Assembly: GCF_963675165.1 (NCBI RefSeq)
Contig: NC_087377.1
Coordinates: 15,806,198 to 15,870,197 of the forward strand
Direction of reading: 5' to 3'
Origin: Halichondria panicea
Lineage: Eukaryota; Porifera; Demospongiae; Suberitida; Halichondriidae
Length of the DNA stretch: 64,000 nt
Part shown: piece by piece, positions 5,403-47,532 of the stretch
Numbering within the stretch: position 1 is the stretch's first letter
Layout of the letters: every line of letters starts with the position of its first letter
The notes under the pieces: generated by a model
Databases searched by the model: none
Seen by the model: only the letters and a program-made list of their open reading frames with translations
Told to the model about the DNA's origin: nothing
Program-made: the position numbers and the translations under genes

Positions 5403-8400
5403 TTAATCGCTTATACAAAAGAAATCAACTGTTTGAAGATCATTATCAAATGGATTTGTCTGTCCTCCGGCTACAATGACCTCTCCACTAGGAAGTACTG
5501 AGCATGTGCAGCTGTGTCGTGCAGTAGGCAGGTCTCCCACTTTCACCCACCTCCTGGTGTCAGGCTGGTAGAGGTGGATCGATGAACTTGGGTTGACACT
5601 GTCGTCCCGTCCACCAACGACTAATAGTGACCTCCCAATACTGAGAGGAGCTGACCACTCGAGTGGTACTTCCTGTAAGGTCTGCCAGAGAGTGGGTGTG
5701 TCCATGTTGGAAAGGGCATTTGCAATGAGTTCATCGAGGTCGGCGTGATGCACTGTCTTGGTTTGACTACTCACAGTGTGATCCCACCCTCCCATTAGGA
5801 AAAGGGTGTTTCCTATGAGAGTCGATTTCAGTGATGATCGTGGGTTAGGTAGTGACTGAGCAATGTACCATCTTCTTGATGCCACATCCAACACCTCCAC
5901 AGAGGAGGTACGTCCTTTATCATCAATCCCACCAGCTACAATGATGTGGTTGTTGAAGGAGACAGCTGTTGAGGAAGAACGAGCAATGTTCATTGGTGGG
6001 TACGGGTGAGTCCATTCCCCTGATTCAAACACTGCAAGTTGATTGGTGGGTTTTTTGTTTCTTAGATAACGTCCTCCCACCAGCACTAGTCGATTAGCGA
6101 GTGATGTCATAGCGAACCACTTGGCAGTGTACTCTGGTAGTTTGGTCCATTGATCTTGCTCGAGCTTCATCACTGTACACAAGTCACGATCATTGCCTAC
6201 AACACCACCTCCACAAACATACACCGTGTCACCGATAACAACACTCTGTACCGAGGTGCCCATCTTGATTGGCATGTCTTTTCCTCTTCTCCATTTCAGA
6301 GTGAGTGGAGGTCTCAACTCTCTGGGAGGGGGACCCTGAATAATGAATGAGTGTAATTAGGATAGTGTCTACTAACAAGCGAGTGTTACTTGTAGCAATA
6401 ATTGCATGCACACTAAATCACTTTCTCTAATTAGCTTAAGAGGCCACGCCCACTAGTCTAATAGAATGTACAGTACGATTATAAGAGATCAAAGCTTCTA
6501 CTATAGCTCTGCAATAATATAATGGTGCATTTTGTCTCACCTGTCTCTGCTGTTGAATGATGGCGTCTCTCCTGACCAGCTCAGCATCTTTGTTGATAGA
6601 AATCTAAAACATAGACGTGAATATCATTAGTGGAAATTCTACAACAGAACGAGAACAAACAACAATTTCTGCTAAAGGAAGTACATAATTATAGGCACAC
6701 TCAAACGGATGTGTAGTTAGCGGCTTAACATGATTTATACAATAGCATCAATTGTTGAGGTATAATACTATTGTTGGAATCTCATCGACACACTTAGCTA
6801 CATGTACGCAAACAAATATCATTATTGTAGTATAATACTAGCGTATAAGAGTGTGTGCATTTGGTGACTACTATAATACCTGTAAGAGAGCGGCCCTCTC
6901 AACTAGAGCACCCTCTCTCTGGGAAATGAGATCAGCGATCGTTGACTCTTGTTCACTGAGTCGTCTGTCCTTGTCAGCAATCATACCATCTTTGGTGGCA
7001 CGGACACTATTCAATATCTGTATAAAAAAAGGTTATCAACATGCTAGCTCGTTGAACAAAATAGCTTATAATAAACGAAATAAACTGGTTCTGCTGACCT
7101 GTTGCAGTCTAGCCAGCTGAGTATCTTTGTCCGCTACTTCCTCATCTTTTTGAACAAGTAGCTCATCTTTTTGTGCCAGAAGTCCGTCTTTTTGATCTAG
7201 TTGATCGTCTTTTTGCACAAGAAGTACATCTTTCTCAGTAAGTTGTTCATCTTTCTGTGCTATTTGCTCATCTTTTCTCTCCAGTATCCTGTCCTTCTGG
7301 ACCATCTCTCTCTGAAAACAGAGTACAGCATGCAGTGTCAGACCCTTGCACCCACTAGCTCACTGGACTGGACTCACCTGTAGAGCCTCTATCCTCTTCT
7401 CCTTTGCCCTGATGGTCCTAGCAGTCTTCACTCGTCCAATGTCCAGCTGGAGCAGTCCTCCGTCCATCTCCCTCCCCACCTCCTCCAGAGACGAGAGGAG
7501 CTCAGCGGTGGTCGGTCTTCTCTCTGGGGTGTTGGCCAGACACTCCCTCACCAGACCAAACAGAGGGTGCTCACGTCCACCCGCCAGACTCCTCTCAAGG
7601 AGAGCCGTGTAGGGACCCCGACGCTCAAACTCTGAGCGAGCCAGGAGGTGGTCTGGGTTGTTGGGGTCGCTGTACGTGGGGGCAAGGAGATCTCCTGGAA
7701 ACACCTAGTCCAATGACACGAGTGGAAGAACATGTGAATACTGACTGTCATGATTGTTTTTATGTATGAGTGCACGTATATTCACAATCATACATACAAA
7801 ATGCATTTGCTGAAGGTCAACAATATTAAAGGGGGATCTCCCCAACACATACAACCACAATACTTATAAGGTAATTCACTGCATGAAAGGTCACCAGGAA
7901 TCTAACCTATGAATATCATTAACTACACACATACTTGTGTGAGTGCAAACAGTTGCAGCACTCCGAAAGAGAAGACGTCCAAACTGGATCCGTACACACT
8001 GTGACCTCTGTCAGAGAGGGCCTCGGGCGGCATGTACACCAGTGTCCCAGGAAACCTCGTCAGAGTCCTGGCCAGTCGACCAGGCTCCAGATTCACGATA
8101 CGAGAGTTACCAAAGTCGGTGATCTTGGCTCTCAGAGATGCCGTCAGCAGAACGTTCCTGGCAGTGAGATCACGATGGACTACGGACTCACGATGCAGGT
8201 GGAGCAGCCCTCGAGCCACACAGACCAGAATGTACTGGGTGACAGAGAGGGGGATGTTGGGGGTGGACTCCAGGAGATCGTCCAGACTTGAGTCCAGTCT
8301 CTCCATGACCAGGAGGGGCAGTCGAGAGCCAGTCACGAAACACAGCCCAATGAACTGGGTGATGTTGGGGTGACGGATGCGAGCCATGAGTCGACACTCT

Positions 8401-8697
8401 CGGCGGTAGTTCCCAGCTAGGTTGGCCACTCCACCACGCTCGTCCGTCTCCAGGAGAACATCGTGGATCTTCTTGGCTGCATACACCTCACCATTGATCA
8501 TCACCTGTGCATGGAGGCAGTCACACTTGAATAGCTAGCAGATACACTAGAGACAGTGCACAGAAACAGAGCATGCAGTGACTGACCTCTTGAACAGAGC
8601 CATAGGAGCCAGTTCCTAGAACTCTCTCCTCTCCAAAGTGCTCCACATTCTCCAGCACAAACTCCCTCAAGTCAGCATCATCTCGCAAAGAAAACAT
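5403..8697 (-). CDS. B1: kinase - coiled coil - Kelch receptor-like gene (784 aa model)
   Basis: Seven exons joined in phase: 8697-8587, 8504-7935, 7704-7378, 7311-7099, 7017-6880, 6603-6541, 6335-5403. Residues 1-336 are a kinase: Gly loop GTGSYGSV at 28-35, AAKK lysine 48, HRDLTARN with catalytic Asp149, DFG 167-169, then MPPEA. HRDLTARN is tyrosine-kinase-like. There is no Death domain and no signal peptide or membrane segment was noticed. Residues 337-474 are a coiled coil of repeated QKDxxL heptads. Residues 475-784 are one Kelch exon with six Gly-Gly motifs, read as a six-bladed propeller. The start is the first ATG of an exon whose upstream side carries the divergent promoter. The first Kelch motif has Cys in place of the usual Gly (VYVCGGG). 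A cytosolic ligand-sensing kinase is inferred. Confidence 0.85.
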
Positions 8698-8888
8698 TGG
8701 TAGTTAAGTTGACTCAGCTAGCTTGCTACAAGATGTACAAGATACGCCCTTTTTCCTATTCCAATGTCCAATCACATGCAATAACAGCTGAATCAGCAAA
8801 CTACGTGGTCACCCAGCACCCATGGAACATGGAGCAAGTGGCTAACTATTGTCTCAGTGTTAGGTGGAGGCTTTGTCCAGTACTATAA
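8698..8888. promoter_or_regulatory. Divergent intergenic region B1/P1
   Basis: It contains two CCAAT-like boxes (8760-8772) and TACGTG at 8802-8807. The latter is the degenerate equivalent of the CACGTG seen in B2, B3 and B4. Its distance to the kinase ATG is about 105 bp, as in B2 (96) and B4 (104). Promoter function is inferred. Confidence 0.4.
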
Positions 8889-12276: not shown

Positions 12277-15200
12277 CTAATTAGCACTTATAGAGAAGAA
12301 ATGAACAGTTCGAATATAATCAACATTTGTCTCTCCTCCGGCTACAATGACCTCTCCAATAGGAAGTACTGAGCATGTGCACCAGTATCGTGCAGTAGGC
12401 AGGTCTCCCACTTTCACCCACCTCCTTGTGTCAGGCTGGTAGAGGTGGATCGATGAACTTGGCTTGTAACTGTCGTTTAGTCCACCAACGGCTAATAGTG
12501 ACCTCCCAATACTGAGAGGAGCTGAGGACACGAGTGGTACTTCCTGTAAGGTCTGCCAGAGAGTGGGTGTGTCCAGGTTGGAAACGGCCTTTGCAATAAG
12601 TTCATTGAGGTCGACGTGGTGCACTATCGTGGTTAGGCTCCCAGTGTGATCGTACCCTCCCATTAGGTAGAGGGTGTTTCCTATGAGAGTCGATTTCAGT
12701 TCTGTTTGTGGGTTAGGTAGTGACTGAGCAATGTACCATCTTCTTGATGCCACGTCCAACACCTCCACAGAGGAGGTACGTCCTTTATCATCACGCCCAC
12801 CAGCTACAATGATGTGGTTGTTGAAGGAGACAGCTGTTGAGAAAGTACGAGCAATGTTCATTGGTGGGTACGGGTGAGTCCATTCCCCTGACTCAAACAC
12901 TGCAAGTTGATTGGTGGGTTTGTTGTTTCTTGGATCATTTCCTCCCACCAGCACTAGTCGATTAGCGAGTGATGTCATAGCGAACCACATGGCAGTGTAC
13001 TCTGGTAGTTTGGTCCATTGATCTTGCTCGAGCTTCATCACTGTACACCTGTCACAATCATCGCCTGCAAACCCTCCACCAACATACACCGTGTCACCGA
13101 TAACAACACTCTGTACCGAGTAGCCCATCTTGATTGGCATGTCTTTCCCTCTTCTCCATTTCAGAGTGAGTGGAGGTCTCAACTCTCTGGGAGGGGGACC
13201 CTGAATAATGAATGAGTGTAATTAGGATAGTGTCTACTAACAAGCGAGTGTTACTTGTAGCAATAATTGCATGCACACTAAATCACTTTCTCTAATTAGC
13301 TTAAGAGGCCACGCCCACCAGTCTAATAGAATGTACAGTGCGATTATAAGAGATCAAAGCTTCTACTATAGCTCTGCAATAATATAATGGTGCATTTTGT
13401 CTCACCTGTCTCTGCTGTTGAATGATGGCGTCTCTCCTGACCAGCTCAGCATCTTTGTGCTCAATTTGTTCCCTGTGTGCCTGTACAGGGGAACGTTGGT
13501 GGAAATCAAACACAGACATGAATAACATTAGAGAAAATTCTACAACAGAACGAGAACAAACAACAATTTCTGCTAAAGGAAGTACATAATTATAGGCACA
13601 CTCAAACGGATGTGTATTTAGCAGCTTAACATGATTTATACAATAGCATCAATTGTTGAGGTATAATACTATTGTTGGAATCTCATCGACACACTTAGCT
13701 ACATGTACGCAAACAAATATCATTATTGTAGTATAATACTAGCGTATAAGAGTGTGTGCATTTGGTGACTACTATAATACCTGTAAGAGAGCGGCCCTCT
13801 CAACTAGAGCAGCCTCTCTCTGGGAAATGAGATCAGTGATCATTGACTCTTGTTCACTGAGTTGTCTGTCCTTGTCAGCAATCACACCATCTTTGGTGGC
13901 AGCATTAGCACGGACACTATTCAATATCTGTATAAAGTGAAAAAAAGATTATCAACATGCTAGCTCGTTGAACAAAATAGCTTATAATGAACAAAATAAA
14001 CTGGTTCTGCTGACCTGTTGCTGTCTAGCAAGCTGAGTATCTTTGTCCGCTACTTCCTCATCTTTTTGAACAAGTAGCCCATCTTTTTGTACCAGAAGTC
14101 CGTCCTTTTCATCTAGTTGATCGTCTTTTTGTGCCAGTAGTGCAACGCTCTGTTCGAGTTGGTTGTCTTTTTGCACTAGAAGTACATCTTTCTCAGTAAG
14201 TTGCTCATCTTTCCTCTCCAGTATCCTGTCCTTCTGGACCACCTCTCTCTGAGAACAGAGTACAGCATGCAGTGTCAGACCCTTGCACCCACTAGCTCAC
14301 TGGACTGGACTCACCTGTAGAGCCTCTATCCTCTTCTCCTTTGCCCTGAGGGTCCTGGCAGTCTTCACTCGCCCAATGTCCAGCTGGAGCAGTCCTCCGT
14401 CCATCTCCCTCCCCACCTCCTCCAGAGACGAGAGGAGCTCAGCGGTGGTCGGTCTTCTCTCTGGGGTGTTGGCCAGACACTCCCTCACCAGACCAAACAG
14501 AGGGTGCTCACGTCCACCCGCCAGACTCCTCTCAAGGAGAGCCGTGTAGGGACCTCGACGCTCAAACTCTGAGCGAGCCAGGAGGTGGTTTGGGTTGTTG
14601 GGGTCGCTGTACGTGGGGGCAAGGAGATCTCCTGGAAACACCTAGTCCAATGACACGAGTGGAAGAACATGTGAATACTGACTGTCATGATTGTTTTTAT
14701 GTATGTCTGTATGTATGGAGAAAACGAGTGCACGTATATTCACAATCATACATACAAAATGCATTTGCTGAAGGTCAACAATATTAAAGGGGGATCTCCC
14801 CAACACATACAACCACAATACTTATAAGGTAATTCACTGCATGAATGGTCACCAGGAATCTAACCTATGAATATCATTAACTACACACATACTTGTGTGA
14901 GTGCAAATAATTGCAGCACTCCGAAAGAGAAGACGTCCAGACTGGGTCCGTACACACTGTGGCCTCTGTCAGAGAGGGCCTCGGGCGGCATGTACACCAG
15001 TGTCCCAGGAAACCTCGTCAGAGTCCTGGCCAGTCGACCAGGCTCCAGATTCACGATACGAGAGTTACCAAAGTCGGTGATCTTGGCTCTCAGAGATGCC
15101 GTCAGTAGGACGTTCCTGGAAGTGAGGTCACGATGGACCACGGACTCACGATGCAGGTGGAGCAGCCCTCGAGCCACACAGACCAGAATGTACTGGGTGA

Positions 15201-15655
15201 CAGAGAGGGGGATGTTGGGGGTGGACTCCAGGAGATCGTCCAGACTTGAGTCCAGTCTCTCCATGACCAGGAGGGGCAGTCGAGAGCCAGTCACGAAACA
15301 CAGCCCAATGAACTGGGTGATGTTGGGGTGACGGATGCGAGCCATGAGTCGACACTCTCGGCGGTAGTTCCCAGCTAGGTTGGCCACTCCACCACGCTCG
15401 TCCGTCTCCAGGAGAACCTCGTGGATCTTCTTGGCTGCATACACCTCACCATTGATCATCACCTGTGCATGGAGGCAGTCACACTTGAATAGCTAGCAGA
15501 TACACGAGAGACAGTGCACAGAAACAGAGCATGCAGTGACTGACCTCTTGAACAGAGCCATAGGAGCCAGTTCCTAGAACTCTCTCCTCTCCAAAGTGCT
15601 CCACATTCTCCAGCACAAACTCCCTCAAGTCAGCATCATCTCGCAAAGAAAACAT
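12277..15655 (-). CDS. B2: kinase - coiled coil - Kelch receptor-like gene (795 aa model)
   Basis: Exons in phase: 15655-15545, 15462-14893, 14641-14315, 14248-14015, 13927-13781, 13480-13406, 13200-12277. The kinase part is nearly identical to B1, with Gly loop, AAK lysine, HRDLTSRN (Ser where B1 has Ala), DFGN and MPPEA. The coiled-coil exon is 78 codons, one heptad longer than B1, with an added VALLAQK-type repeat. The next exon is 49 codons against 46 in B1. The short coiled-coil exon uses the longer AHREQIEHKD form. The Kelch exon (307 aa) differs from B1 mainly in loop clusters, for example NIAR-TF-S against NIAR-SS-S and EVPL-VS against EVPL-EW. It is open throughout with no lesion. 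Confidence 0.87.
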
Positions 15656-19170: not shown

Positions 19171-22030
19171 CTAATTAGCACTTATAGAGAAGAAATCAAC
19201 AGTTGGAGTATATGCAGTAAACAGTTTTGTCTGTCCTCCGGCTACAATGACCTCTCCACTAGGAAGTACTGAGCATGTGCAGCAGTATCGTGCAGTAGGC
19301 AGGTCTCCCACTTTCACCCACCTCCTGGTGTCAGGCTGGTAGAGGTGGATCGTTGAACTTGGGTTGCGTCTGTCGTCTCGTCCACCAACGGCTAATAGTG
19401 ACCTCCCAATACTGAGAGGAGCTAACCACACGAGTGGTACTTCCTGTAAGGTCTGCCAGAGAGTGGGTGTGTCCAGGTTCGAATGGGCCTTTGCAATCAG
19501 TTCATTGAGGTCGACGTGGTGCACTGTCTTGGTTGGCCTCCCAGTGTGATCCCACCCTCCCATTAGGTAGAGGGTGTTTCCTATGAGAGTTGATTTCAGT
19601 ATTGATCGTGGGTTAGGTAGTGACTGAGCAATGTACCATCTTCTTGATGCCACGTCCAACACCTCCACAGAGGAGGAGGTACGTTCTTCATCATCACGCC
19701 CACCAGCTACAATGATGTGGTTGTTGAAGGAGACAGCTGTTGAGGAATCACGAGCAATGTTCATTGGTGGGTACGGGCGAGTCCATTCCCCTGATTCAAA
19801 CACTGCAAGCTGATTGGTGGGTTTGTTGTTTCTTAGATCACGTCCTCCCACCAGCACTAGTCGATTAGCGAGTGATGTCATAGCGAAGTACTTGACAGTG
19901 TACTCTGGTAGATTGGTCCATTGATCTTGCTCGAGCTTCATCACTGTACACACGTCACGATCATTGCCTGCACGCCCTCCACCAACATACACCGTGTCAC
20001 CGATAACAACACTCTGTACCGTGGTACCCATCTTGATTGGTATGTCTTTTCCTCTTCTCCATTTCAGAGTGAGTGGAGGTCTCAACTCTCTGGGAGGGGG
20101 ACCCTGAATAATGAATGAGTGTAATTAGGATAGTGTCTACTAACAAGCGAGTGTTACTTGTAGCAATAATTGCATGCACACTAAATCACTTTCTCTAATT
20201 AGCTTAAGAGGCCACGCCACGCCCACCAGTCTAATAGAATGTACAGTACGATTATAAGAGATCAAAGCTTCTACTATAGCTCTGCAATAATATAATGGTG
20301 CATTTTGTCTCACCTGTCTCTGCTGTTGAATGATGGCGTCTCTCCTGACCAGCTCAGCATCTTTGTGCTTAATCTGTTCCCCGTGTGTCTGTACAGGGGA
20401 ACGTTGGTGGAAATCAAACACAGACGTGAATAACATTACAGAAAAATCTACAACAGAACGAGACAATCTTCACTAAAGGAAGTACATAATTATAGGCACA
20501 CTCAAACGGATGTGTAGTTACGGCTTAACACATGAGATAGCATCCATGCATGTTAAGGTACAATACTATTGTTGCTGTGGGAATCTCATTATCACAGTAC
20601 ATGTACGAACCTTTTTGACTGGTTGAGGGTCCTTTGACTCCCTCTTTGTTGCCTCCACTGTGTCCGAGCTTGTTGTCAGGTCAGCATCTAAAGTAAAAGA
20701 AAATCGATACCAACATAAAATGATTTTTCTGTTAGAGCTAGGAGTTAGTGGAAACGTAAAACACATAATTATAATTGACTCACAGATGTCCCTGGCAGAT
20801 GGTCTCCTCGTCATGTCTTCTTGCAAGCAACTGTCGATAAGCTTCCTTAACCTGTGTGTGTGAGGGATCTGGGCAACATGGAATAATCGATCCTTGACTG
20901 ATTTGATCGTCTCCAGCTTGCAAACAATTTGCGTCACAATCACCCCATAGGAAAACACATCCAGGCTGTTATCGTATTTCTTCTCTTCCAATCGTATAGC
21001 CTCGAGAGGTAGATACCCCATACGGTGACCAATGGCTGTGAGAGTGTGGCTAAGCTTGGAGGGATCGTATAGCCGTGACATGCCAAAGTCGGATATCTTT
21101 GCAACAGGCATTGGTCGTGAAAGATTCAGCAAAACGTTATCACCACAGAGGTCACGGTGGATAATCTGCTTGCTATGAATGTAGGCCAGACCACAAGCTA
21201 TGTCTTTGGAGAGGCTAATTTCACATTCGCTAGTGAGGGACTCTTCATCAAGGCCAGAAAAATAGGATCTCAGATTGCAATCCATCAGCTCAACAACGAG
21301 GATTGTACTCCCTGATTTGGGGTGCTTGGCAGTCGACAAAAACTGAACAATGTTTGGGTGCTGGAACGACTTGAGAAAATCACTCTCACGATCAATTGCA
21401 TTGCTAGCTTCTTCGTCTTTGGCGATTGGAATACTTGCCTGCATCTCCATAGCATCGTGAAGCAGCACTTTGACTGCACAAATCTCGCCCTTGTAGCTGC
21501 CTTTGAAGACTGCTCCAAATGCACCTTTACCGAGAGGCTTGTCTAAGAAAACAGTCAAATCATCGTTAATCTTCTGGCGGGTTTGGTCAACTGTACAACA
21601 TTGTGTGTGTGTGTGTGTGTGTGTGTGTGGGGGGGGGTGAATATTATAGCAGCTAACGAACTAAGCATTATGACTGTATGATTCCTGTGCTGAACTAGTG
21701 CTTACCCTCTGACTTCACATCAGTAGGATTGCTTGGACCAGTAGACTGTAGATGATCTTTCTCGATGGTCTGGGCTATGTGAGCTTCACCCACGATGGGA
21801 CTGGTCAATGCCTCCACCATCTCTTTCCAGCTCTTCCCTCCTTCATTAAGCCATTTAATCAAACCCTCACGATAGCAGTCATCAGGATTGTTGCTCCATT
21901 CTTTCCCGATGCTGTGGATTGTAGCCTGGGGTACGTCAAGAATAAGCAAGATGTTTCGCCACTTAATTCGAGCATCAAACGTGACGAGGTACAATTTCTT
22001 TAGATCTGCTATTGTGAGATAGTCCGACAT
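19171..22030 (-). CDS. A2: Death domain - kinase - coiled coil - Kelch gene (738 aa model), intact
   Basis: Five exons join in phase: 22030-21706, 21590-20784, 20687-20611, 20388-20314, 20103-19171. Residues 1-108 hold a Death domain (from MSDYLTIADL to AQTIEKDHL), a homotypic interaction module. The kinase follows: GKGAFGAVFKG loop at about 129-139, CAVK lysine, HRDLCGDN, SDFG, and LPLEA in place of APE. A linker of 26 codons and a 25-codon coiled coil (HKDAELVRRDAIIQQQRQ) lead to a 310-aa Kelch exon with six Gly-Gly motifs. IRAK and plant Pelle-like proteins share Death-kinase order, but the Kelch end is unlike them. The linker donor is the weak GTTCGT. The start is the first ATG, with the divergent promoter upstream. 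No lesion is visible. Confidence 0.88.
21603..21629. repeat. (GT)n tract in the Death-kinase intron of A2
   Basis: About 13 GT units followed by a G run. It is the short allele of the tract at 1401-1524, upstream of the kinase acceptor on the coding strand. Confidence 0.9.
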
Positions 22031-22400
22031 CTTCTGTGTAGAGTGTGGAATAAGATAAACAATGATAATTATGAAGGTACATGTAATTATGTATAAATAT
22101 TTGGTGTGTGCAAATTATATCATCAAAACCATAAATACCGTAGATCTATATGCAGAAAATAAAACAGTGCTGTCTGCACTTACTGATAATAATCCAGAGC
22201 TACAGTATCTTCACAGCTTGATACCAGGCACGATACAGAAGTACAGGACAACAGTTAGCTCAGCTACAACGAGACCCGCCCTGTTTCTCTGCAGAATAAA
22301 CAATAGCTGTCACGTGCGATAACATTGCTAAACCACGTGGCTGATCTTTCACTGCACTTCCATAGCTAGCTAGCTAGAGAGAAGAAGAAATTATGCTGTC
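22031..22400. promoter_or_regulatory. Divergent intergenic region A2/U2 with E-box CACGTG at 22334-22339
   Basis: AAACCACGTGGCTG lies 304 bp from the A2 start codon. The position is conserved in A1, A3 and A4. Promoter role inferred. Confidence 0.45.
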
Positions 22401-26724: not shown

Positions 26725-29112
26725 CTAATTAGCACTTATATAAAAGAAATCAATAGTTGGAATACTAGTAAGTGGTTCTGTCTGTCCTCCGGCTACAATG
26801 ACCTCTCCACTAGGAAGTACTGAGCATGTGCAGCAGTATCGTGCAGTAGGCAGGTCTCCCACTTTCACCCACCTCCTGGTGTCAGGCTGGTAGAGGTGGA
26901 TCGATGAACTTGGGTTGGCTCTGTCGTCCCGTCCACCAACGGCTAATAGTGACCTCCCAATACTGAGAGGAGCTGAGAACACGAGTGGTACTTCCTGTAA
27001 GGTCTGCCAGAGAGTGGGTGTGTCCAGGTTGGAAAGGGCTTTTGCAATGAGTTCATCGAGGTCGACGTGGTGCACTGTCTTGGTTGCCCTAGTGTGATCG
27101 GACCCTCCCATTAGGTAGAGGGTGTTTCGTATGAGAGTCGATTTCAGTTCTGATCGTGGGTTAGGTAGTGACTGAGCAATGTACCATCTTCTTGATGCCA
27201 CGTCCAACACCTCCACAGAGGAGGTACGTCCTTTATCATCATACCCACCAGCTACAATGATGTGGTTGTTGAAGGAGACTGCAGTTGAGAAAATACGAGC
27301 AATGTTCATTGGTGGGTACGGGTGAGGCCATTCCCCTGATTCAAACACTGCAAGCTGATTGGTGCGTTTTTTGTTTCTTGGATTATTTCCTCCCACCAAC
27401 ACTAGTCGATTAGCGAGTGATGTCATAGCGAAGTACATGGCAGTGTACTCTGGTAGTTTGGTCCATTGATCTTGCTCGAGCTTCATCACTGTACACATGT
27501 CACGACCATTGTCTGCATTACCTCCACCAACATACACCGTGTCACCGATAACAACACTCTGTACCGTGGAACCCATCTCGATTGGCATGTCTTTTCCTCT
27601 TCTCCATTTCAGAGTGAGTGGAGGTCTCAACTCTCTGGGAGGGAGACCCTGAATAATGAATGAGTGTAATTAGGATAGTGTCTACTAACAAGCGAGTGTT
27701 ACTTGTAGCAATAATTGCATGCACACTAAATCACTTTCTCTAATTAGCTTAAGAGGCCACGCCCACCAGTCTAATAGAATGTACAGTACGATTATAAGAG
27801 ATCAAAGCTTCTACTATAGCTCTGCAATGATATAATGGTGCAGTTTGTGTCACCTGTCTCTGCTGTTGAATGATGGCGTCTCTCCTGACCAGCTCAGCAT
27901 CTTTGTGCTTATTCTGTTCCCTGTGTGCCTGTACAGGGGAACGTTGGTGAAAAAATTCTACAACAGAACGAGACATTCTTCAGTAAAGGAAGTACATAAT
28001 TATAGGCACACTCAAACGGATGTGTAGTTACGGCTTAACACATGAGACAGCATCCATGCATGTTAAGGTACAATACTATTGTTGCTGTGGGAATCTCATC
28101 CACACACTACATGTATGCACCTTCTTGACTTGTTCAGTGTCCTTTGACTCCTTCTTTGTTGCCTCCACTGGGTCCGAGCTTGTTGTTAGGTAAGTATCTA
28201 AAATCGATACCAACATTAATAGACGGATATGATTTTTTCGTTAGGGTTACAGTTAGCTGAAACGTAAAACACATAATATACTTATCATTGACTCACAGAT
28301 GTCCCTGGCAGATGGTCTCCTCCTCATGTCTTCTTGCAAACAACTGTCGATAAGCTTCCTCAACCTGTGTGTGTGAGGTATCTGGGCAACATGGAATGAT
28401 CGATCTTCCACAGATTTGATCGTCTTCAGCTTGCAAACAATCTGCATCATAATCGCCCCAAGAGAGAACACATCCAAGCTATTATCGTAAATATCCTTGT
28501 CCAATCGAATAGCCTCGAGAGGTAGATACCCCATACGGTGACCAACGGCCGTGAGGGTGTGGCTAAGCTTGGAGGGATCGTATAGCCGTGACATGCCAAA
28601 GTCGGATATCTTTGCAACAGGCACTGGTCGTGTAAGTTTCAGCAAGACGTTATCACCACAGAGGTCACGGTGGATAATCTGCTTGCTGTGAATGTAGGCC
28701 AGACCACAAGCCATGTCTTTGGAGAGGCTAATTTCACATTCGCTAGTGAGGGACTCTTCATTAAAGCCGGAGAAATAGGATCTCAGATTGCAATCCATCA
28801 GCTCAACAACGAGGATTGTACTTCCTGATTTGGGGTGCTTAGCTGTCGACAAATACAGAACAACGTTTGGGTGCTGGAGTGACTGGAGAAACTCACACTC
28901 ACGATCAAATGCTTTGCTAGCTTCTTCACTTTTGCCGGTTGGGAAACCTGTCTGCATTTCTACAGCCTCGTAAATTAGAAGTTTGACTGCACAAATGTCA
29001 CCCCTGTAGCTGCCTTTGAAGACTACTCCAAATGCACCTTTACCGAGAGATTCGTCTAGGAAAACAGTCAAATCGTCGTTGATCAGCTGGCGATTTTGAT
29101 AAACTGTAGATT

Positions 29113-29208: not shown

Positions 29209-29608
29209 GGGGGTCCAGGGGGTGAATAATAGCAGCTGACATCATGTATGAGATATGCATTCCTGTGCTGAACTAGTGCTTACCCTCTGACTTCACATCA
29301 GTAGGATTGCTTGCATCAGTAGACTGTAGATGATCTTTCTCGATGGTCCTGGCTATGTCACTGTGGCCCACAATAGGACTTGACAAAGCTTTGACAACAT
29401 CTTCCCAGCTTCTCTTACCACCTTTCAGCCATTCTTTCAAACCCTCACGATAGCATTCCTTTGGATCGTCTCGCCATTTTGTACCAATGCTGTCGATGGT
29501 ATCAGAGGATACCTCAAGAACTAGCAAGAAGTTTCGCCACTCGATTCGAGCATCAAACGTAGCTATGTATAGTTTTCCTAGATCTGCTATTGTGAGATAG
29601 TCAGACAT
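26725..29608 (-). CDS. A3: Death domain - kinase - coiled coil - Kelch gene (735 aa model), intact
   Basis: Exons in phase: 29608-29284, 29103-28297, 28197-28121, 27928-27854, 27648-26725. Death domain at residues 1-108. The kinase has the Gly loop at 129-139 (GKGAFGVVFKG), Lys149, His253-Arg254-Asp255, Asp276-Phe-Gly, so all catalytic residues are present. Linker 378-403, coiled coil 404-428 and Kelch 429-735 with six Gly-Gly motifs follow. The kinase differs from A1 by essentially one residue (Asn for Asp in FSGFNEES). The Kelch exon has its own variants (NIAR-IF-S, EVPL-VF, MGG-S-DHT). The first Kelch residues read GLPPREL, where other copies read GPPPREL. Expected to be cytosolic, coupling ligand capture by Kelch to Death-domain assembly and phosphorylation. 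This role is inferred from domains. Confidence 0.88.
29115..29205. repeat. (GT)n tract in the Death-kinase intron of A3
   Basis: About 45 GT units with one interruption (GTGTGGGTGT). It is shorter than the A1 tract although the flanks are nearly identical, showing rapid length change. Confidence 0.93.
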
Positions 29609-30052
29609 CTTCTCTGTAGAGAGTGGAATAAGATAAACAATGAATGTATTATATAAATTATATATTATGTCAGAATTAGTGTGTGCAAATTATATCATGC
29701 CATCTAAATCATGTACATGCAGTAAACAGTGCTGTCTGCACTCACTGATAATAATCCAGAGGCTCTGTACAGTACAGTATCTTCACAGCATGATACAGAA
29801 ATACAGAAAAACAGCAACTAACAAGATACGCCCTCTTTCTCTGCAGAATAAACAATAATCTGTCACGCAATATACAATGCTAAACCACATGTAGCTAGCC
29901 TCGATCCAAGGTGAAGGAGGCTTAACCACGTGTGGTGCTTCCACAAAAGAAAAGAAAAAGAAATTGTGCAGTCAGTCAAAAATTGTGCAGTCAGTTTTGA
30001 AGCTCTGAGCAAGTGGTCAAACTATTTGTCTGTATTGGTGGAGGCTGAAGAC
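29609..30052. promoter_or_regulatory. Divergent intergenic region A3/U3 with E-box CACGTG at 29927-29932
   Basis: CCACGTGTGG lies 319 bp from the A3 start codon, as in A1. The flank holds a TAGCCTCGATCCAAGG repeat piece (29896-29911). Promoter role inferred. Confidence 0.45.
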
Positions 30053-30908
30053 ATGAGTCCATGGACAGGGACTACTGAGGAACCTTCATCAAGAACATTA
30101 ACAAGGTACAGTTATTCATAAATATTAAATTACAAAGCGAGAGGTCATTTCTTTTTGGAGGTTTAGAAAAATTCCTGGTGTCGCATATTTAGAGGGTCGC
30201 ATCTAATTGGAGGTTACTCTACTATCCTCGATTATAGGCTGCTTAAAATTATATTGTTTCTAGCGGCCTGGAATCGAGGCCGTGGTTTGACCTCTATTAT
30301 ATTTAGGACGCGACATAAAAAAAAAATTGTCACACGCAGCAGTCGCTACTTTTAGAGGTCAGAAAATTACCTAAGATCGAGGGTGTCGCATATTTGGAGG
30401 GTCGCCTTAAATTGAACAAGTACAGTACTTGTGTATAATGTGTAGTTGGTTATAATGTGGGCCCTAACTTTGGTCTTGTGCATGATACCCAGGTATGTAC
30501 CCACACAGAGTTCACACCAAGTAACATAAAAGCAAACACTTAAAAACTGTTTTAATACAGAGATACTACACGTAGGGACAGAGCCAACCGACGTGGAGAC
30601 GGTTACTATCGCTACTGAAGAGGTAGTACCCAGTTCACAGTTTGAGATAGAGATAAGTCAGAGTGATGATGGGGAGAGTGTGGAGCAGCAACAGGCCAGT
30701 GAATTGGGCCCTAACTTTGGCCTTGTGCATGATACCCAGGTAACACACACACACACAGTTCACACCAAGTAATATACAAAAACTAGCGCTTAAAAACGCT
30801 TTTTTAAAGGTATTATCCGGCTTCTAAGACGTTTCGTTTTCGTATTATTTTCGCTTTCGTATTACATGGTTAGAATTTGCATGATGGTAACTACCTCCCA
30901 AATAACGA

Positions 30909-30939
<31 letters not shown>

Positions 30940-32613: not shown

Positions 32614-32987
32614 GACTGTTAAATATTATTTTGTCTGTTTTTGTACTATTTTCTGGCAATGTAATTATGTATGTACCACTTCATGTCATCATAATAACTA
32701 TAATTATATGCGATAAAATTCTGTTGCAACTTAATTTTCTCTTACCTGCTTATAACATGCAAATATTTAAGGCGTGGCTTCCGTTAAGCAGTCATTCCGC
32801 GAACATTGTGCAACGAAAAGAGGCCTATCCACAAAATATAAATGCCTCAAAAATTTCGTGCTATACGGTATTTAGCACTTATAGATCAACAGTTCGAATA
32901 AAAATAAACGAAATATGCGAACTTAATTAGAAAACTTTTTTCAAAAAGATTGTTAACAATGCACAACATAATTATTACAATAACTAA

Positions 32988-35900
32988 TTAATCGCTTATA
33001 CAAAAGAAATCAACTGTTTGAACACAATTACCACTACCATATAGTTTTGTCTGTCCTCCGGCTACAATGACCTCTCCACTAGGAAGTACTGAGCATGTGC
33101 ACCAGCATCGTGCAGTAGGCAGGTCTCCCACTTTCACCCACCTCCTGGTGTCAGGCTGGTAGAGGTGGATCGATGAACTTTGGTTGGCTCTGTCGTCCCG
33201 TCCACCAACGGCTAATAGTGACCTCCCAATACTGAGAGGAGCTGAGAACTTGAGTGGTACTTCTTGTAAAATCTGCCAGGGAGTGGGTGTGTCCAGGTTG
33301 GAAAGGGCCTTTGCAATGAGTTCATTGAGGTCGACGTGGTGCACTGTCTTGGTTGCCCACCCAGTGTGATCGTACCCTCCCATTAGGTACCCTCCCATTA
33401 GGTAGAGGGTGTTTCCTATGAGAGTCGATTTCAGATATGATCGTGGGTTAGGTAGTGACTGAGCAATGTACCATCTTCTTGATGCTACGTCCAACACCTC
33501 CACAGAGGAGGAGGTACCTTCTTTATCATCATTCCCACCAGCTACAATGATGTGGTTGTTGAAGGAGACAGCTGTTGAGGAATGACGAGCAATGTTCATT
33601 GGTGGGTACGGGTGAGTCCATTCCCCTGATTCAAACACTGCAAGTTGATTGGTGGTTTTTTTGTTTCTTAGATAACGTCCTCCCACCAGCACTAGTCGAT
33701 TAGCGAGTGATGTCATAGCGAACCACTTGGCAGTGTACTCTGGTAGTTTGGTCCATTGATCTTGCTCGAGCTTCATCACTGTACACAAGTCACGATCATT
33801 GCCTACAACACCACCTCCACCAACATACACCGTGTCACCGATAACAACACTCTGTACCGAGGTGCCCATCTTGATTGGCATGTCTTTTCCTCTTCTCCAT
33901 TTCAGAGTGAGTGGAGGTCTCAACTCTCTGGGAGGGGGACCCTGAATAATGAATGAGTGTAATTAGGATAGTGTCTACTAACAAGCGAGTGTTACTTGTA
34001 GCAATAATTGCATGCACACTAAATCACTTTCTCTAATTAGCTTAAGAGGCCACGCCCACCAGTCTAATAGAATGTACAGTACGATTATAAGAGATCAAAG
34101 CTTCTACTATAGCTCTGCAATAATATAATGGTGTATTTTGTCTCACCTGTCTCTGCTGTTGAATGATGGCATCTCTCCTGACCAGCTCAGCATCTTTGTG
34201 CCCAATTTGTTCCCTGTGTGCCTGTACAGGGGAACGTTGGTGGAAATCAAACACAGACATGAATAACATTAGAGAAAATTCTACAACAGAACGAGAACAA
34301 ACAACAATTTCCGCTAAAGGAAGTACTTAATTATAGGCACACTCAAACGGATGTGTATTTAGCGGCTTAACATGATTTATACAATAGCATCAATTGTTGA
34401 GGTATACTACTATTGTTGGAATCTCATCGACACACTTAGCTACATGTACGCAAACAAATATCATTATTGTAGTATAATACTAGCGTATAAAAGTGTGTGC
34501 ATTTGGTGACTACTATAATACCTGTAAGAGAGCGGCCCTCTCAACTAGAGCAGCCTCTCTCTGGGAAATGAGATTAGCGATCGTTGACTCTTGTTCACTG
34601 AGTTGTCTGTCCTTGTCAGCAATCATACCATCTTTGGTGGCAGCATTAGCACGGACACTATTCAATATCTGTATAAAGTGAAAAAAAGGTTATCAACATG
34701 CTAGCTCGTTGAATAAAATAGCTTATAATGAACAAAATAAACTGGTTCTGCTGACCTGTTGCTGTCTAGCAAGCTGAGTATCTTTGTCCGCTACTTCCTC
34801 ATCTTTTTGAACAAGTAGCTCATTTTTTTGTGCCAGTAGTGCAACCATCTTTCCTCTCCAGTATCCTGTCCTTCTGGACCACCTCTCTCTGAGAACAGAG
34901 TACAGCATGCAGTGTCAGACCCTTGCACCCACTAGCTCACTGGACTGGACTCACCTGTAGAGCCTCTATCCTCTTCTCCTTTGCCCTGAGGGTCCTGGCA
35001 GTCTTTACTCGTCCAATGTCCAGCTGGAGCAGTCCTCCGTCCATCTCCCTCCCCACCTCCTCCAGAGACGAGAGGAGCTCAGTGGTGGTCGGTCTTCTCT
35101 CTGGGGTGTTGGCCAGACACTCCCTCACCAGACCAAACAGAGGGTGCTCACGTCCACCCGCCAGACTCCTCTCAAGGAGAGCCGTGTAGGGACCTCGACG
35201 CTCAAACTCTGAGCGAGCCAGGAGGTGGTCTGGGTTGTTGGGATCGCTGTACGTGGGGGCAAGGAGATCTCCTGGAAACACCTAGTCCAATGACACGAGT
35301 GGAAGAACATGTGAATACTGACTGTCATGATTGTTTTCATGTATGTCTGTATGTATGGAGAAAATGAGTGCACGTATATTCACAATCATACATACAAAAT
35401 GCATTTGCTGAAGGTCAACAATATTAAAGGGGGATCTCCCCAACACATACAACCACAATACTTATAAGGTATATTGAAAGATAATTTACTGATGAAAGGT
35501 CATCATGACTATAAATAACATCAACATACTTGTGTGAGTGCAAACAATTGCAGCACTCCGAAAGAGAAGACGTCCAGACTGGGTCCGTACACACTGTGAC
35601 CTCTGTCAGAGAGGGCCTCGGGCGGCATGTACACCAGTGTCCCAGGAAACCTCGTCAGAGTCCTGGCCAGTCGACCAGGCTCCAGATTCACGATACGAGA
35701 GTTACCAAAGTCGGTGATCTTGGCTCTCAGAGATGCCGTCAGCAGGACGTTCCTGGCAGTAAGGTCACGATGGACCACGGACTCACGATGCAGGTGGAGC
35801 AGCCCTCGAGCCACACAGACCAGAATGTACTGGGTGACAGAGAGGGGGATGTTGGGGGTGGACTCCAGGAGATCGTCCAGACTTGAGTCCAGCCTCTCCA

Positions 35901-36292
35901 TGACCAGGAGAGGCAGTCGAGAGCCAGTAACGAAACACAGCCCAATGAACTGGGTGATGTTGGGGTGACGGATGCGAGCCATGAGTCGACACTCTCGGCG
36001 GTAGTTCCCAGCTAGGTTGGCCACTCCACCACGCTCATCCGTCTCCAGGAGAACCTCGTGGATCTTCTTGGCTGCATACACCTCACCATTGATCATCACC
36101 TGTGCATGGAGGCAGTCACACTTGAATAGCTAGCAGATACACTAGAGACAGTGCACAGAAATAGAGCATGCAGTGACTGACCTCTTGAACAGAGCCATAG
36201 GAGCCAGTTCCTAGAACTCTCTCCTCTCCAAAGTGCTCCACATTCTCCAGCACAAACTCCCTCAAGTCAGCATCATCTCGCAAAGAAAACAT
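32988..36292 (-). pseudogene. B3: kinase - coiled coil - Kelch gene with a coiled-coil frameshift
   Basis: Exons: 36292-36182, 36099-35530, 35281-34955, 34888-34756, 34668-34522, 34221-34147, 33941-32988. The kinase part is intact, with HRDLTARN, DFGN and MPPEA. The main coiled-coil exon is 133 bp against 234 in B2. The missing 101 bp shift the frame and give a stop after DRILERKD plus a few residues, so the product would be about 358 aa: a kinase with no Kelch domain. The downstream Kelch exon remains open over 318 codons. It contains a 15-bp tandem duplication (YLMGGYLMGG). Either a young pseudogene or a gene now making a soluble kinase. The promoter is interrupted by two transposon-like elements. 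Confidence 0.7.
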
Positions 36293-40132: not shown

Positions 40133-43100
40133 CTAATTAGTGCTTATAGAGAAGAAATCAACAGTTTTAATTACTTCTGTCTCTCCTCCAGCTACAATGA
40201 CCTCTCCACTAGGAAGTACTGAGCATGTGCAGCAGTATCGTGCAGTAGGCAGGTCTCCCACTTTCACCCACCTCCTGGTGTCAGGCTGGTAGAGGTGGAT
40301 CGATGAACTTGGGTTGACACTGTCGTCCCGTCCACCAACGGCTAATAGTGACCTCCCAATACTGAGAGGAGCTGAATACAAGAGTGGTACTTCCTGTAAG
40401 GTCTGCCAGAGAGTGGGTGTGTCCAGGTTGGAAAGGGCTTTTGCAATGAGTTCATTGAGGTCGACGTGGTGCACTATCTTAGTTGCACTCCGAGTGTGAT
40501 CGAACCCTCCCATTAGGTAGAGGGTGTTTCCTATGAGAGTTGATTTCAGTGCGGATCGTGGGTTAGGTAGTGACTGAGCAATGTACCATCTTCTTGATGC
40601 CACGTCCAACACCTCCACAGAGGAGATACGTACTTTATCATCATACCCACCAGCTACAATGATGTGGTTGTTGAAGGAGACAGCTGTTGAGGAACAACGA
40701 GCAATGTTCATTGGTTGGTACGGGTGAGTCCATTCCCCTGCTTCAAAAACTGCAAGCTGATTGGTGCGTTTGTTGATTCTTGGATCAAGTCCTCCCACCA
40801 GCACTAGTCGATTAGCGAGTGATGTCATAGTGAACCAATAGGCAGTGTACTCTGGTAGTTTGGTCCATTGATCTTGCTCGAGCTTCATCACTGTACACAT
40901 GTCACGATCATTGCCTGCACGCCCTCCACCAACATATACCGTGTCACCGATAACAACACTCTGTACCGAGGTGCCCATCTTGATTGGCATGTCTTTTCCT
41001 CTTCTCCATTTCAGAGTGAGTGGAGGTCTCAACTCTCTGGGAGGGGGACCCTGAATAATGAATGAGTGTAATTAGGATAGTGTCTACTAACAAGCGAGTG
41101 TTACTTGTAGCAATAATTGCATGCACACTAAATCATTTTCTCTAATTAGCTTAAGAGGCCACACCCACCAGTCTAATAGAATGTACAGTACGATTATAAT
41201 AGATCAAAGCTTCTACTATAGCTCTGCAATAATATAATGGTGCATTTTGTCTCACCTGTCTCTGCTGTTGAATGATGGCGTCTCTCCTGACCAGCTCAGC
41301 ATCTTTGTTGGTGGAAATCTAAAACACAGACGTGAATATCATTAGTGGAAATTCTACAACAAAACGAGAATTTCCGCTAAATGAAGTACATAATTATAAG
41401 CACACTCAAACGGATGTGTATTTAGCCGGTTAACATGATTTATACAATAGCATCAATTGTTGAGTTATAATACTATTGTTGGAATCTCATTGACACACTT
41501 AGCTACATGTACGCAAACAAATATCATTATTGTAGTATAATACTAGCGTATAAGAGTGTGTGCATTTGGTGACTACTATAATACCTGTAAAAGAGCGGCC
41601 CTCTCAACTAGAGCAGCCTCTCTCTGGGAAATGAGATCAGTGATCCTTGACTCTTGTTCACTGAGTTGTCTGTCCTTGTCAGCAATCAAACCATCTTTGG
41701 TGGCACCATTAGCACGGACACTATTCAATATCTGTATAAAGTGAAAAAGTTGAAATCAACATAGTTAGAATACTAACAAAATGGCCTATAAAAAAAACAA
41801 AGTAAACTGGTTCTGCTGACCTGTTGCTGTCTAGCCAGCTGGGTATCTTTGTACGCTACTTGCTCATTTTTTTGTACCAGAAGTCCGTCTTTTTGATCCA
41901 GTTGATCGTCTTTTTGTGCCAGTAGTGCAACGCTCTGTTCGAGTTGGTTGTCTTTTTGCACTAGAAGTGCATCTTTCTCAGATAGTTGCTCATCTTTCCT
42001 CTCCAGTATCCTGTCCTTCTGGACCACCTCTCTCTGAGAACAGAGTACAGCATGCAGTGTCAGACCCTTGCACCCACTAGCTCACTGGACTGGACTCACC
42101 TGTAGAGCCTCTATCCTCTTCTCCTTTGCCCTGAGGGTCCTGGCAGTCTTCACTCGTGCAATGTCCAGCTGAAGCAGTCCTCCGTCCATCTCCCTCCCCA
42201 CCTCCTCCAGAGACGAGAGGAGCTCAGCGGTGGTCGGTCTTCTCTCTGGGGTGTTGGCCAGACACTCTCTCACCAGACCAAACAGAGGGTGCTCACGTCC
42301 ACCCGCCAGACTCCTCTCAAGGAGAGCCGTGTAGGGACCTCGACGCTCAAACTCTGAGCGAGCCAGGAGGTGGTCTGGATTGTTGGGGTTGCTGTACGTG
42401 GGGGCAAGGAGATCTCCTGGAAACACCTAGTCCAATGACACGAGTGGAAGAACATGTGAATACTGACTGTCATGATTGTTTTTATGTATGTCTGAATGTA
42501 TGGAGAAAACAAGTGCACGTATATTCACAATCATACATACAAAATGCATTTGCTGAAGGTCAACAATATTAAAGGGGGATCTCCCCAACACATACAACCA
42601 CAATACTTATAAGGTAATTCACTGCATGAATGGTCACCGGGAATCTAACCTATGAATATCATTAACTACACACGTACTTGTGTGAGTACAAACAATTGCA
42701 GCACTCCGAAAGAGAAGACGTCCAGACTGGGTCCGTACACACTGTGACCTCTGTCAGAGAGGGCCTCGGGCGGCATGTACACCAGTGTCCCAGGAAACCT
42801 CGTCAGAGTCCTGGCCAGTCGACCAGGCTCCAGATTCACGATACGAGAGTTACCAAAGTCGGTGATCTTGGCTCTCAGAGATGCCGTCAGCAGGACGTTC
42901 CTGGCAGTAAGGTCACGATGGACCACGGACTCACGATGCAGGTGGAGCAGCCCTCGAGCCACACAGACCAGAATGTACTGGGTGACAGAGAGGGGGATGT
43001 TGGGGGTGGACTCCAGGAGATCGTCCAGACTTGAGTCCAGCCTCTCCATGACCAGGAGGGGCAGTCGAGAGCCAGTCACGAAACACAGGCCAATGAACTG

Positions 43101-43440
43101 GGTGATGTTGGGGTGACGGATGCGAGCCATGAGTCGACACTCTCGGCGGTAGTTCCCAGCTAGGTTGGCCACTCCACCACGCTCGTCCGTCTCCAGGAGA
43201 ACCTCGTGGATCTTCTTGGCTGCATACACCTCACCATTGATCATCACCTGTGCATGGAGGCAGTCACACTTGAATAGCTAGCAGATACACTAGAGACAGT
43301 GCACAGAAACAGAGCATGCAGTGACTGACCTCTTGAACAGAGCCATAGGAGCCAGTTCCTAGAACTCTCTCCTCTCCAAAGTGCTCCACATTCTCCAGCA
43401 CAAACTCCCTCAAGTCAGCATCATCTCGCAAAGAAAACAT
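40133..43440 (-). CDS. B4: kinase - coiled coil - Kelch receptor-like gene (782 aa model)
   Basis: Exons in phase: 43440-43330, 43247-42678, 42426-42100, 42033-41821, 41731-41585, 41318-41256, 41050-40133. Kinase residues 1-336 as in B1, with loop, lysine, HRDLTARN and DFGN all present. The coiled-coil exon is 71 codons and mixes heptads of the B1 and B2 types, ending KNEQVAYKDTQLARQQQ. The short exon begins ISTNKD, using an acceptor next to ATTTCCACC, as in B1 rather than B2. The Kelch exon encodes 305 residues with distinct loop variants (EYT-AYW-F, NIAR-CS-S, NPR-SA-LK, EVPL-LY). It is open throughout. Confidence 0.87.
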
Positions 43441-46440: not shown

Positions 46441-46639
46441 GACTGTTAAATATTATTTTGTCTGTTTTTATACTATTTTTTGGCAATGTAATTATGTATG
46501 TACCACTTCATGTCATCATAATAACTATAATTATATGCGATAAAATTCTATTGCAACTTCAACATTGTTATAAATGAATATCAATATCGTTATAAACCCA
46601 TCGCACAATTAAAGAGAAACAATTAACAAAATAACTAAA

Positions 46640-47532
46640 TAGCACTTATAGAGAAAAAATCAATAAGTACATCTGTCTGTCCTCCGGCTACAATGACCTC
46701 TCCACTAGGAAGTTCTGAGCATGTGCAGTAGGCAGGTCTCCCACTTTCACCCACCTACTGGTGTCAGGCTGGTAGAGGTGGATCGATGAACTTCGGTTCA
46801 ATCTGTCGTCTCGTCCACCAACGGCTAATAGTGACCTCCCAATACTGAGAGGAGCTGAGACATGAGTGGTACTTCCTGTAAGGTCTGCCAGATAGTGGGT
46901 GTGTCCAGGTTGGAAAGGGCTTTTGCAATGAGTTCATTGAGGTCGACGTGGTGCACTGTCTTAGTTGGACTCCGAGTGTGATCGTACCCTCCCATTAGGT
47001 AGAGGGTGTTTCCTATGAGAGTCGATTTCAGTCCTGATCGTGGGTTAGGTAGTGACTGAGCAATGTACCATCTTCTTGATGCCACGTCCAACACCTCCAC
47101 AGAGGAGAAACGTACTTTATCATCACACCCACCAGCTACAATGATGTGGTTGTTGAAGGAGACAGCTGTTGAGGAAGAACGAGCAATGTTCATTGGTGGG
47201 TACGGGTGAGTCCATTCCCCTGATTCAAACACTGCAAGCTGATTGGTGCGTTTGTTGATACTTGGATGACGTCCTCCCACCAGCACTAGTCGATTAGCGA
47301 GTGATGTCATAGCGAAAAACTTGGCAGTGTACTCTGGTAGTTTGGTCCATTGATCTTGCTCGAGCTTCATCACTGTACACGAGTCACGATCATTGTCTGC
47401 ATACCCTCCACCAACATACACCGTGTCACTGATAACAACACTCTGTACCGAGGTACCCATCTTGATTGGCATGTCTTTTCCTCTTCTCCATTTCAGAGTG
47501 AGTGGAGTTCTCAACTCTCTCGGAGGGGGACC
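46640..47532 (-). pseudogene. Orphan Kelch exon with two deletions
   Basis: This matches the Kelch exons of the array (acceptor at 47532/47533, GPPPREL then TPLTLKWRRGKD). No kinase or coiled-coil exon lies upstream; sequence after 47548 switches abruptly to a P-family fragment. One base is missing near 46860 (GCTGAGACATGAG against GCTGAGAACACGAG). A 13-bp deletion near 46727 removes the YxCTC blade-six region. Its blade residues are again unique (EYT-AKF-F, NPR-SG-LK). Confidence 0.85.

Follow-up and report, generated by a model that had tools for sequence, protein, structure and literature searches.

A putative repertoire of Kelch-kinase recognition proteins with hypervariable propeller sites in the demosponge Halichondria panicea

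Results

The 64,000-nucleotide stretch of DNA analysed here (the window) is C1:15806198-15870197 (NC_087377.1) of the demosponge Halichondria panicea, whose genome comprises 131 Mb in 39 contigs. It holds a set of genes in which an exon encoding a Kelch propeller accompanies one of several N-terminal modules. We describe these genes, the much larger family to which they belong, and the evidence that this family is probably a repertoire of cytosolic recognition kinases encoded in the germline, which duplication, conversion and selection have diversified.

The exons of the window described below all lie on its minus strand. K1 (5403..6356) is a six-bladed Kelch exon of a B-type gene, recognised from its open reading frame and exon start with a B-type kinase upstream. 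K2 (12277..13221), also of a B-type gene and the reference copy used throughout, matches Pfam Kelch_1 at E 2.6e-27. The open reading frame of K3 (19171..20124), part of an A-type gene, is nucleotide-identical over its aligned part to a copy at 16.89 Mb on C1, and K4 (26725..27669, A-type) and K6 (40133..41071, B-type) were assigned from their open reading frames and upstream modules. K5 (32988..33962, B-type) is an open reading frame with an in-frame five-codon insertion that repeats YLMGG and adjoins the blade-4 contact loop. The last copy, K7 (46825..47559), is an orphan and pseudogene-like, with a frameshift after the blade-5 VPL and without an in-frame blade 6. A first-pass annotation of the window had listed sets of alternative residues at equivalent sites in these seven exons; the alternatives are present in the translations, except that K2 reads NPQTELK where NPR..LK was given and that the frameshifted orphan has no in-frame blade 6 to contribute.

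Upstream of the Kelch exons of B-type genes the kinase is encoded in two parts. The N part (7923..8534, 14881-15492, 35521-36129 and 42666-43277) matches Pfam Pkinase at 1.4e-31 for the copy at 14881-15492; the C part (7360..7704, 14297-14641, 34937-35281 and 42082-42426) was placed by reading and has no Pfam match on its own. In the K2 gene a coiled-coil linker exon, likewise placed by reading, occupies 13982..14296, with more coil exons inside 13301-13948. The A-type kinase exon occurs at 20566..21660, 538-1395, 28253-29110 and 60300-61154, the first of these matching Pfam Pkinase at 7.3e-39. A Death-like exon of the A-type genes lies at 29273..29689, where the Pfam Death match (E 0.0052) is below the cut-off, and at 21695-22114, where there is no such match.

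NCBI gene models join these exons into proteins with the Kelch exon at the C-terminus, after one of three N-terminal module types. In type A (P0001) a Death-like domain is followed by a kinase, a short coil and Kelch; type B (P0003) has a kinase, a long coil and Kelch; and type C (P0010) has two unrecognised domains before Kelch. A Pfam scan of P0010 gave no kinase match for the type C module; for the N-terminal part of that module, PDB matches are absent up to E=1 and no Pfam match is convincing. Examples of the type C module lie at C1:17339184-17340341 and 15511304-15512458, and many distant relatives occur on C5, C9 and C11. For the 103 Kelch exons on C1, the nearest upstream module within 5.5 kb is of type A in 61 cases, B in 28 and C in 12, with none in the remaining 2; the module lists behind these counts are lower bounds. 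Genes of the three types are interspersed along the arrays. The Kelch part is assigned as a six-bladed propeller by sequence, from Kelch-type Pfam matches together with six Gly-Gly blades, and the best PDB match of K2 is KLHL12. NACHT, NB-ARC, LRR and WD40 domains were not found in Pfam scans of P0001, P0003 and P0010 at E up to 1, nor in the window exons at E up to 0.01; BTB and BACK domains were likewise not found in these three proteins.

Across an alignment of 33 proteins, H, R, N and DFG of the kinase never vary, and conservation of the catalytic D and K is 90% or higher. The B kinase has IRAK4 among its best PDB matches; the best matches of the A kinase are EGFR, LIMK, Eph and Raf chains, not IRAK. 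A profile built from six relatives of the Death-like domain matches 11 PDB chains, all of them FADD (E 0.0035-0.091). Hydropathy in five proteins revealed no typical membrane span or signal-like stretch (maximum Kyte-Doolittle score over 19 residues, KD19, 1.59), and the Kelch-kinase proteins are probably cytosolic.

Two further observations concern these output modules. P0084 (LOC135337596; probably on C6) combines a B-like kinase N-terminus with an AIG1/interferon-inducible (IIGP)-type GTPase in the place where Kelch would be. AIG1/IIGP-type modules are known from immune GTPases, and with this GTPase replacing Kelch the B output module appears to be joined also to another candidate sensor or effector. 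In addition, C3:0.87-2.46 Mb and C11:4.4-6.5 Mb hold very large extra clusters of kinase exons whose identity to the B kinase is about 45-51%; two open frames on C11 are longer than 1900 amino acids.

The seven Kelch exons of the first-pass annotation are all present, but the window set is a small fraction of the family. A search from K2 yields at least 126 copies of the Kelch exon in the genome, namely 103 on C1, 19 on C6 and 4 on C28 (lower bounds throughout), among which the six intact copies of the window are counted. Their protein identity to K2 is 81-100%, only 3 of the 126 contain an internal stop, and most lie in two regions of C1, at 15.48-16.13 Mb on the minus strand and at 16.71-17.39 Mb on the plus strand. 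The corresponding arrays (15.48-16.14 Mb, minus; 16.70-17.39 Mb, plus) are thus opposed, and identical Kelch copies occur in both arms, such as K3 and the copy at 16.89 Mb. This arrangement may reflect an inverted duplication or recent exchange, or possibly an assembly error. C28 is a small scaffold of 94,770 bases and could be an alternative haplotype. Three of its four Kelch copies were compared with others; two are near-identical to copies on C6 (L100/L093 and L099/L032) and one, L108, is close to none. L099 and L032 differ at three codons, one of them at a variable site (TGG to TAC).

To describe variation within the family, 117 sequences were taken in, and L009 and L016 (which are K2 and K6), L111 and L113 (other families) and the frameshifted K7 were dropped. 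The 112 copies kept, 108 of them distinct, omit some of the 126 genomic matches and include a few copies outside them. Over 300 near-ungapped codon columns, entropy reaches at least 2 bits, our definition of a hypervariable column, in 22; it lies at 1-2 bits in 21 and below 1 bit in 257, with a maximum of 3.49 bits. The near-fixed framework with variation at equivalent sites that had been noticed in the window therefore holds across 108 distinct copies and is not a small-sample effect. The hypervariable sites are enriched 2.4-3.3-fold in Arg, Tyr, Phe and Cys relative to the framework, and 100 of the 108 copies carry a 22-residue combination of their own. When the arrays of C1 (84 copies) and of C6/C28 (19 copies) were analysed apart, the same columns varied (Spearman 0.56 over 300 columns): 21 columns of at least 2 bits on C1 and 21 of at least 1.8 bits on C6/C28 have 15 in common.

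In the kinase exons this pattern is mostly absent. Subsamples of 24 Kelch copies still contain on average 18.7 columns of at least 2 bits and 25.3 at 1-2 bits. In 24 copies of the B kinase exon, the ratio of nonsynonymous to synonymous proportions of differences (pN/pS) is 0.15 and no column exceeds 1 bit. The earlier statement that the kinase exons barely vary applies to this exon, but less so to the A kinase exon, where pN/pS is 0.42 (24 copies), 29 of 284 columns lie at 1-2 bits and one, near the start of the aligned frame, exceeds 2 bits.

The hypervariable columns recur at fixed places in the blades. With positions numbered from the last Gly of the Gly-Gly of each blade, every one of the six blades has columns of at least 2 bits at -16 or -15, and five blades also have one at +1, where the remaining blade reaches 1.70 bits; the others lie at +3 to +8. 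The two principal sites are separated by 17 residues in five blades and by 16 in blade 4. Ligand-contact residues of Keap1 include Ser363, Arg380, Ser508, Tyr525, Ser555 and Tyr572, and the pairs Ser363-Arg380, Ser508-Tyr525 and Ser555-Tyr572 are likewise 17 residues apart (residues named in the available part of PMC6891428). The offsets corresponding to Keap1 contacts (-16, -15, +1, +3 and +6) hold 16 of the 22 hypervariable columns on 30 of the 300 positions (p=5.9e-14); the remaining 6 are all found after Gly-Gly, at +4 to +8. The variable sites are thus not spread evenly over the propeller.

In another conceivable role, a wide range of endogenous targets would be phosphorylated or scaffolded by the kinases, with the propeller picking the client in the manner of KLHL adaptors, and the family would have diversified for regulation or through genomic conflict and not for immunity. 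Keap1/KLHL-type propellers do select client peptides through these positions (residues from the available part of PMC6891428, in a register that is partly our assumption), and the KLHL12 match of K2 is in keeping with such a role. Stable clients, however, predict conservation and not a nonsynonymous to synonymous rate ratio (omega, or dN/dS) above 1 with rapid turnover among copies, and no BTB domain accompanies the propeller in P0001, P0003 or P0010 (E up to 1). We regard client selection as quite unlikely.

Selection at the variable codons was assessed in two ways. Tree-free NG86 counts, which used a looser gap rule and hence slightly different column sets, give pN/pS of 2.73 in 24 columns of at least 2 bits versus 0.48 in 258 columns below 1 bit; pN is 0.520 at the variable columns, and pS is 0.190 there and 0.087 in the framework. 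Site-wise rates were then estimated with our own FUBAR-like grid method rather than HyPhy (MG94, kappa fixed at 2, on a fast tree). The nonsynonymous rate beta exceeds the synonymous rate alpha with a posterior above 0.95 at 22/22 hypervariable columns, both on a tree built from the framework only (means 19.8 and 2.3) and on a tree of the exon. Averaged over the 257 framework columns, beta is 0.70 and alpha 1.31 on the framework tree; 81 of these columns are clearly under purifying selection and 6 under positive selection. The proposal that the presumed ligand face is under diversifying selection is hence supported both by where the sites lie and by a dN/dS above 1, rather than at or below 1, at each of them. 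The variable residues lie in loops beside a constrained framework, and might simply lack constraint and drift neutrally; the excess of beta over alpha at all 22 sites contradicts such drift, which we hold to be extremely improbable.

Mutation targeted to fixed codons, of a diversity-generating or hypermutation-like kind, with selection secondary, could also concentrate variation at these sites. Several of them have first and second bases near random with the third base almost fixed, and some near-identical copies differ by 2-3 bases inside one codon. Moreover, differences at fourfold synonymous third bases amount to 0.145 at variable codons versus 0.067 in the framework (2.2-fold), so that mutation may be locally raised about twofold. 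In the allele network, however, transversion rates per opportunity are 0.127, 0.099 and 0.100 for nonsynonymous changes at positions 1, 2 and 3 versus 0.042 for synonymous third-position changes, as selection predicts, with a smaller gap for transitions (0.156 and 0.116 versus 0.102). Short exchange between copies sharing a framework can, in addition, give multi-base changes. Given the allele-network counts, selection is the simpler account, and we consider directed mutation very unlikely. A further argument, that codons ending in A keep A, was not used; its counts were mixed (105/107, 92/108, 65/108 and 64/107).

Comparisons among copies indicate how the diversity may arise. Of eight pairs with exactly 13 framework differences, four differ at 14-18 of the 22 variable codons and four at 0-2; in the eight closest pairs, which have no more than 4 framework differences, 0-3 variable codons differ. 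Turnover at the variable sites is thus fast but uneven, as block exchange would give. Linkage between variable columns, examined in 92 non-redundant copies, is confined largely to neighbours: the median z is 3.5 for the five pairs of columns up to 5 apart and 0.1-0.8 for those farther apart, with some exceptions at longer range, among them columns 271 and 325 (z 5.3). Within the framework, r2 is 0.03-0.05 from 15 bases up, and four gametes are present in 19-26% of site pairs.

A recent segmental duplication in the window provides an example on a larger scale. Positions 1-7183 correspond to 27716-34840, at an offset of about 27.6 kb, and one block has 5 mismatches in 2385 aligned bases. In another block mismatches are unevenly placed, numbering 8/2189 in 3078-5277, 48/797 in 5278-6077, 2/400 in 6078-6477 and 24/704 in 6478-7183. 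The K1 and K5 Kelch exons, which are copies within this duplication, differ at 47 of 951 bases, mostly inside 5278-6077. The divergent stretches have the look of gene conversion in at least one tract. The main tract spans roughly blades 3-6, and we read it as the stretch at 5278..6077 (no strand assigned), which takes in the 3' part of the K1 exon and sequence just beyond.

The Kelch exon is also largely independent of the module to which it is attached. Among 82 typed copies the framework distance is 0.0416 within module types and 0.0422 between them (p=0.24), and between-module differentiation of Kelch sequences is 1-2%. Since Kelch sequences barely group by module, the sensor is nearly free of its output.

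A second set of proteins shows the same pattern. A search from P0058 returned 509 proteins at E<=0.001, and the results for this second lineage refer to the best 120 of them. Over the Kelch part their identity to P0058 is 71-100%, whereas P0058 and its sisters are about 30% identical to K2. The kinase motifs HRD..N and DFG are present in 86 of the 120, and IRAK4 is again among the best PDB matches of the kinase. Of 302 columns, 22 reach at least 2 bits, and the Keap1 offsets account for 14 of them (p=6.8e-11). Mean entropy is highest at offsets -15 (2.94) and +1 (3.07), and the entropies correlate with those of Halichondria panicea (Spearman 0.56, 162 positions). Long kinase-Kelch proteins from other sources were also encountered (P0052, P0057 and P0061), one of them labelled as an Acidimicrobiia metagenome-assembled genome; the kinase-Kelch combination may also exist in bacteria.

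As a control we took the 12 best-related of 20 matches (47-92% identical), presumed from one search to be low-copy orthologues. Variability in this ortholog-like set is 1.04 at the contact offsets (28 positions) versus 0.94 elsewhere (266 positions; p=0.23). Subsamples of 12 copies give 1.56 versus 0.29 in Halichondria panicea and 1.45 versus 0.41 in the second lineage. Blades without Gly-Gly, namely blade 1 in the second lineage and blades 1 and 4 in the ortholog-like set, were anchored by eye in these comparisons. The lack of a significant excess in the ortholog-like set indicates that the contact positions are not simply lax but stand out in expanded repertoires, a further result at odds with neutral drift.

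Discussion

At the level of sequence, the architecture of these genes, their copy number, the positions of the variable sites, the selection acting on them, the weak linkage between them, the near-independence of sensor and module and the recurrence in a second lineage are established. Together they suggest the following mechanism. The C-terminal six-bladed Kelch propeller would serve as the sensor, and in each blade two groups of residues, the one or two before the strand leading to Gly-Gly and those just after it, would form a variable contact face. A coiled coil would join this propeller to an output, comprising a Death-like domain and kinase in type A, a kinase in type B and a two-part module without a recognised kinase in type C. 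New specificities would arise by tandem and segmental duplication; conversion-like exchange would reshuffle loops and transfer the Kelch exon from one output module to another; and point mutation, subject to strong diversifying selection, would alter the contact sites while the framework stays uniform. Ligand binding would then activate the kinase or the Death-type output. Ligand binding by the face, triggering of the kinase by that binding, the cytosolic location of the proteins and a role in immune (microbial or foreign) recognition are inferences on our part.

Several points weigh against this interpretation or loosen parts of it. The ligand face is predicted from the Keap1 register and not from a structure; the Keap1 offsets were chosen after the variable positions were known, and the placement of the Keap1 residues relative to Gly-Gly is one that we take to be correct, checked by the spacings 17, 5 and 2 alone. 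Four of the 22 variable sites lie in an indel-rich C-terminal stretch where the alignment is less sure. Tree-based omega is approximate in the presence of recombination, and the 0.95 threshold is also passed by 26 of the 257 framework columns on the exon tree, which leaves site calls beyond the main set less secure. The raised fourfold differences described above belong here too. Linkage within the framework is low but has no clear fall with distance, and so argues for exchange less strongly than a decay would; the variable-codon distance by module type, 0.788 within and 0.798 between (82 typed copies), is at the edge of significance (p=0.05). The Death-like domain gives Pfam Death matches at E 0.005-0.03, all below the cut-off, in three of six sequences scanned and none in the other three, full-length P0001 included. 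Finally, all variation in Halichondria panicea analysed here is among paralogues of one genome.

The main rival concerns the ligand rather than the receptor. Sponges are known for tissue-graft rejection, and a receptor of the same type could serve self/non-self discrimination (allorecognition) between sponges and not the recognition of microbes. The closest analogue found in the literature, the HNWD family of Podospora, includes allorecognition genes with a hypervariable propeller (available parts of PMC1805685 and PMC12222747). Contact between sponges, however, is made via cell surfaces, whereas the present proteins look cytosolic by hydropathy alone, and the very large number of paralogues in one genome is more in line with a broad repertoire than with a small number of highly allelic loci. 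Allorecognition is therefore unlikely in our judgement, though it deserves more weight than the other alternatives.

No description of such a family appeared among the results listed in a search of the open-access literature, which takes in neither preprints nor most subscription journals. The available parts of a study of the immune repertoire of Halichondria panicea (PMC8242945) and of the Geodia genome (PMC10542158) contain no mention of 'kelch', and that of PMC6208332 has two Kelch table rows. In the same part of PMC8242945, kinase genes with DEATH domains are among those changed after lipopolysaccharide; no link to the Kelch-kinase genes could be made. With some reserve, we lean towards the view that these genes constitute an undescribed, NLR-independent animal system, a germline repertoire of modular cytosolic 'Kelch receptor kinases', in which a hypervariable face with mostly unlinked loops is swapped among interchangeable outputs. 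The system would number more than 100 genes in Halichondria panicea and, in one or more other lineages, probably run to hundreds of proteins.

The family can be compared with several known systems. Repertoires of NLRs in animals and plants, those of sponges included, are cytosolic and tandem-duplicated, with a conserved output and a variable sensor. The Kelch-kinase family resembles them in its tandem duplication, its conserved output with a variable sensor and its presumed cytosolic location, but differs in that neither NACHT/NB-ARC nor LRR was found in the sponge proteins scanned. It is only partly IRAK-like: as in IRAK/Pelle proteins, which combine a Death domain with a TKL kinase and signal from Toll/IL-1-type receptors via MyD88, a Death-like domain precedes the kinase in type A, and IRAK4 is among the best matches of the B and second-lineage kinases, but a coiled coil and a hypervariable Kelch propeller are added, the Death match is sub-threshold and the A kinase is not closest to IRAK. 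With Keap1/KLHL proteins it shares the six-bladed Kelch propeller and the 17-residue spacing of paired sites in five of six blades; those proteins are BTB-BACK-Kelch, whereas the sponge family has a kinase instead, with no BTB or BACK found in P0001, P0003 or P0010, and its contact sites vary among copies.

The strongest likeness is to the HNWD genes, a family of which HET-R is also a member. In Podospora anserina HNWD proteins (HET-D, HET-E), a propeller with a near-identical framework undergoes exchange between copies and carries diversifying codons on a presumed interaction face (available parts of PMC1805685 and PMC12222747). In the sponge family, too, the hypervariable codons show diversifying selection while the rest of the propeller is uniform. 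HNWD proteins, however, are fungal NLRs with a WD40 propeller, in which variation lies between the repeats of a 10-member family; here the propeller is Kelch, variation lies between whole propellers in at least 126 copies, and the animal proteins, in which no NACHT was found, have a kinase output with or without a Death-like domain. With neither NACHT nor WD40 found in the proteins scanned, the sponge family would thus work like HNWD without being a member of it. If our interpretation is correct, it offers a testable route to how early-branching animals discern microbes or non-self, together with a natural library of Kelch face residues that can be changed with the fold kept, and the sponge possesses a large NLR-independent receptor repertoire of Kelch and kinase that follows the same evolutionary logic as the fungal HNWD genes.

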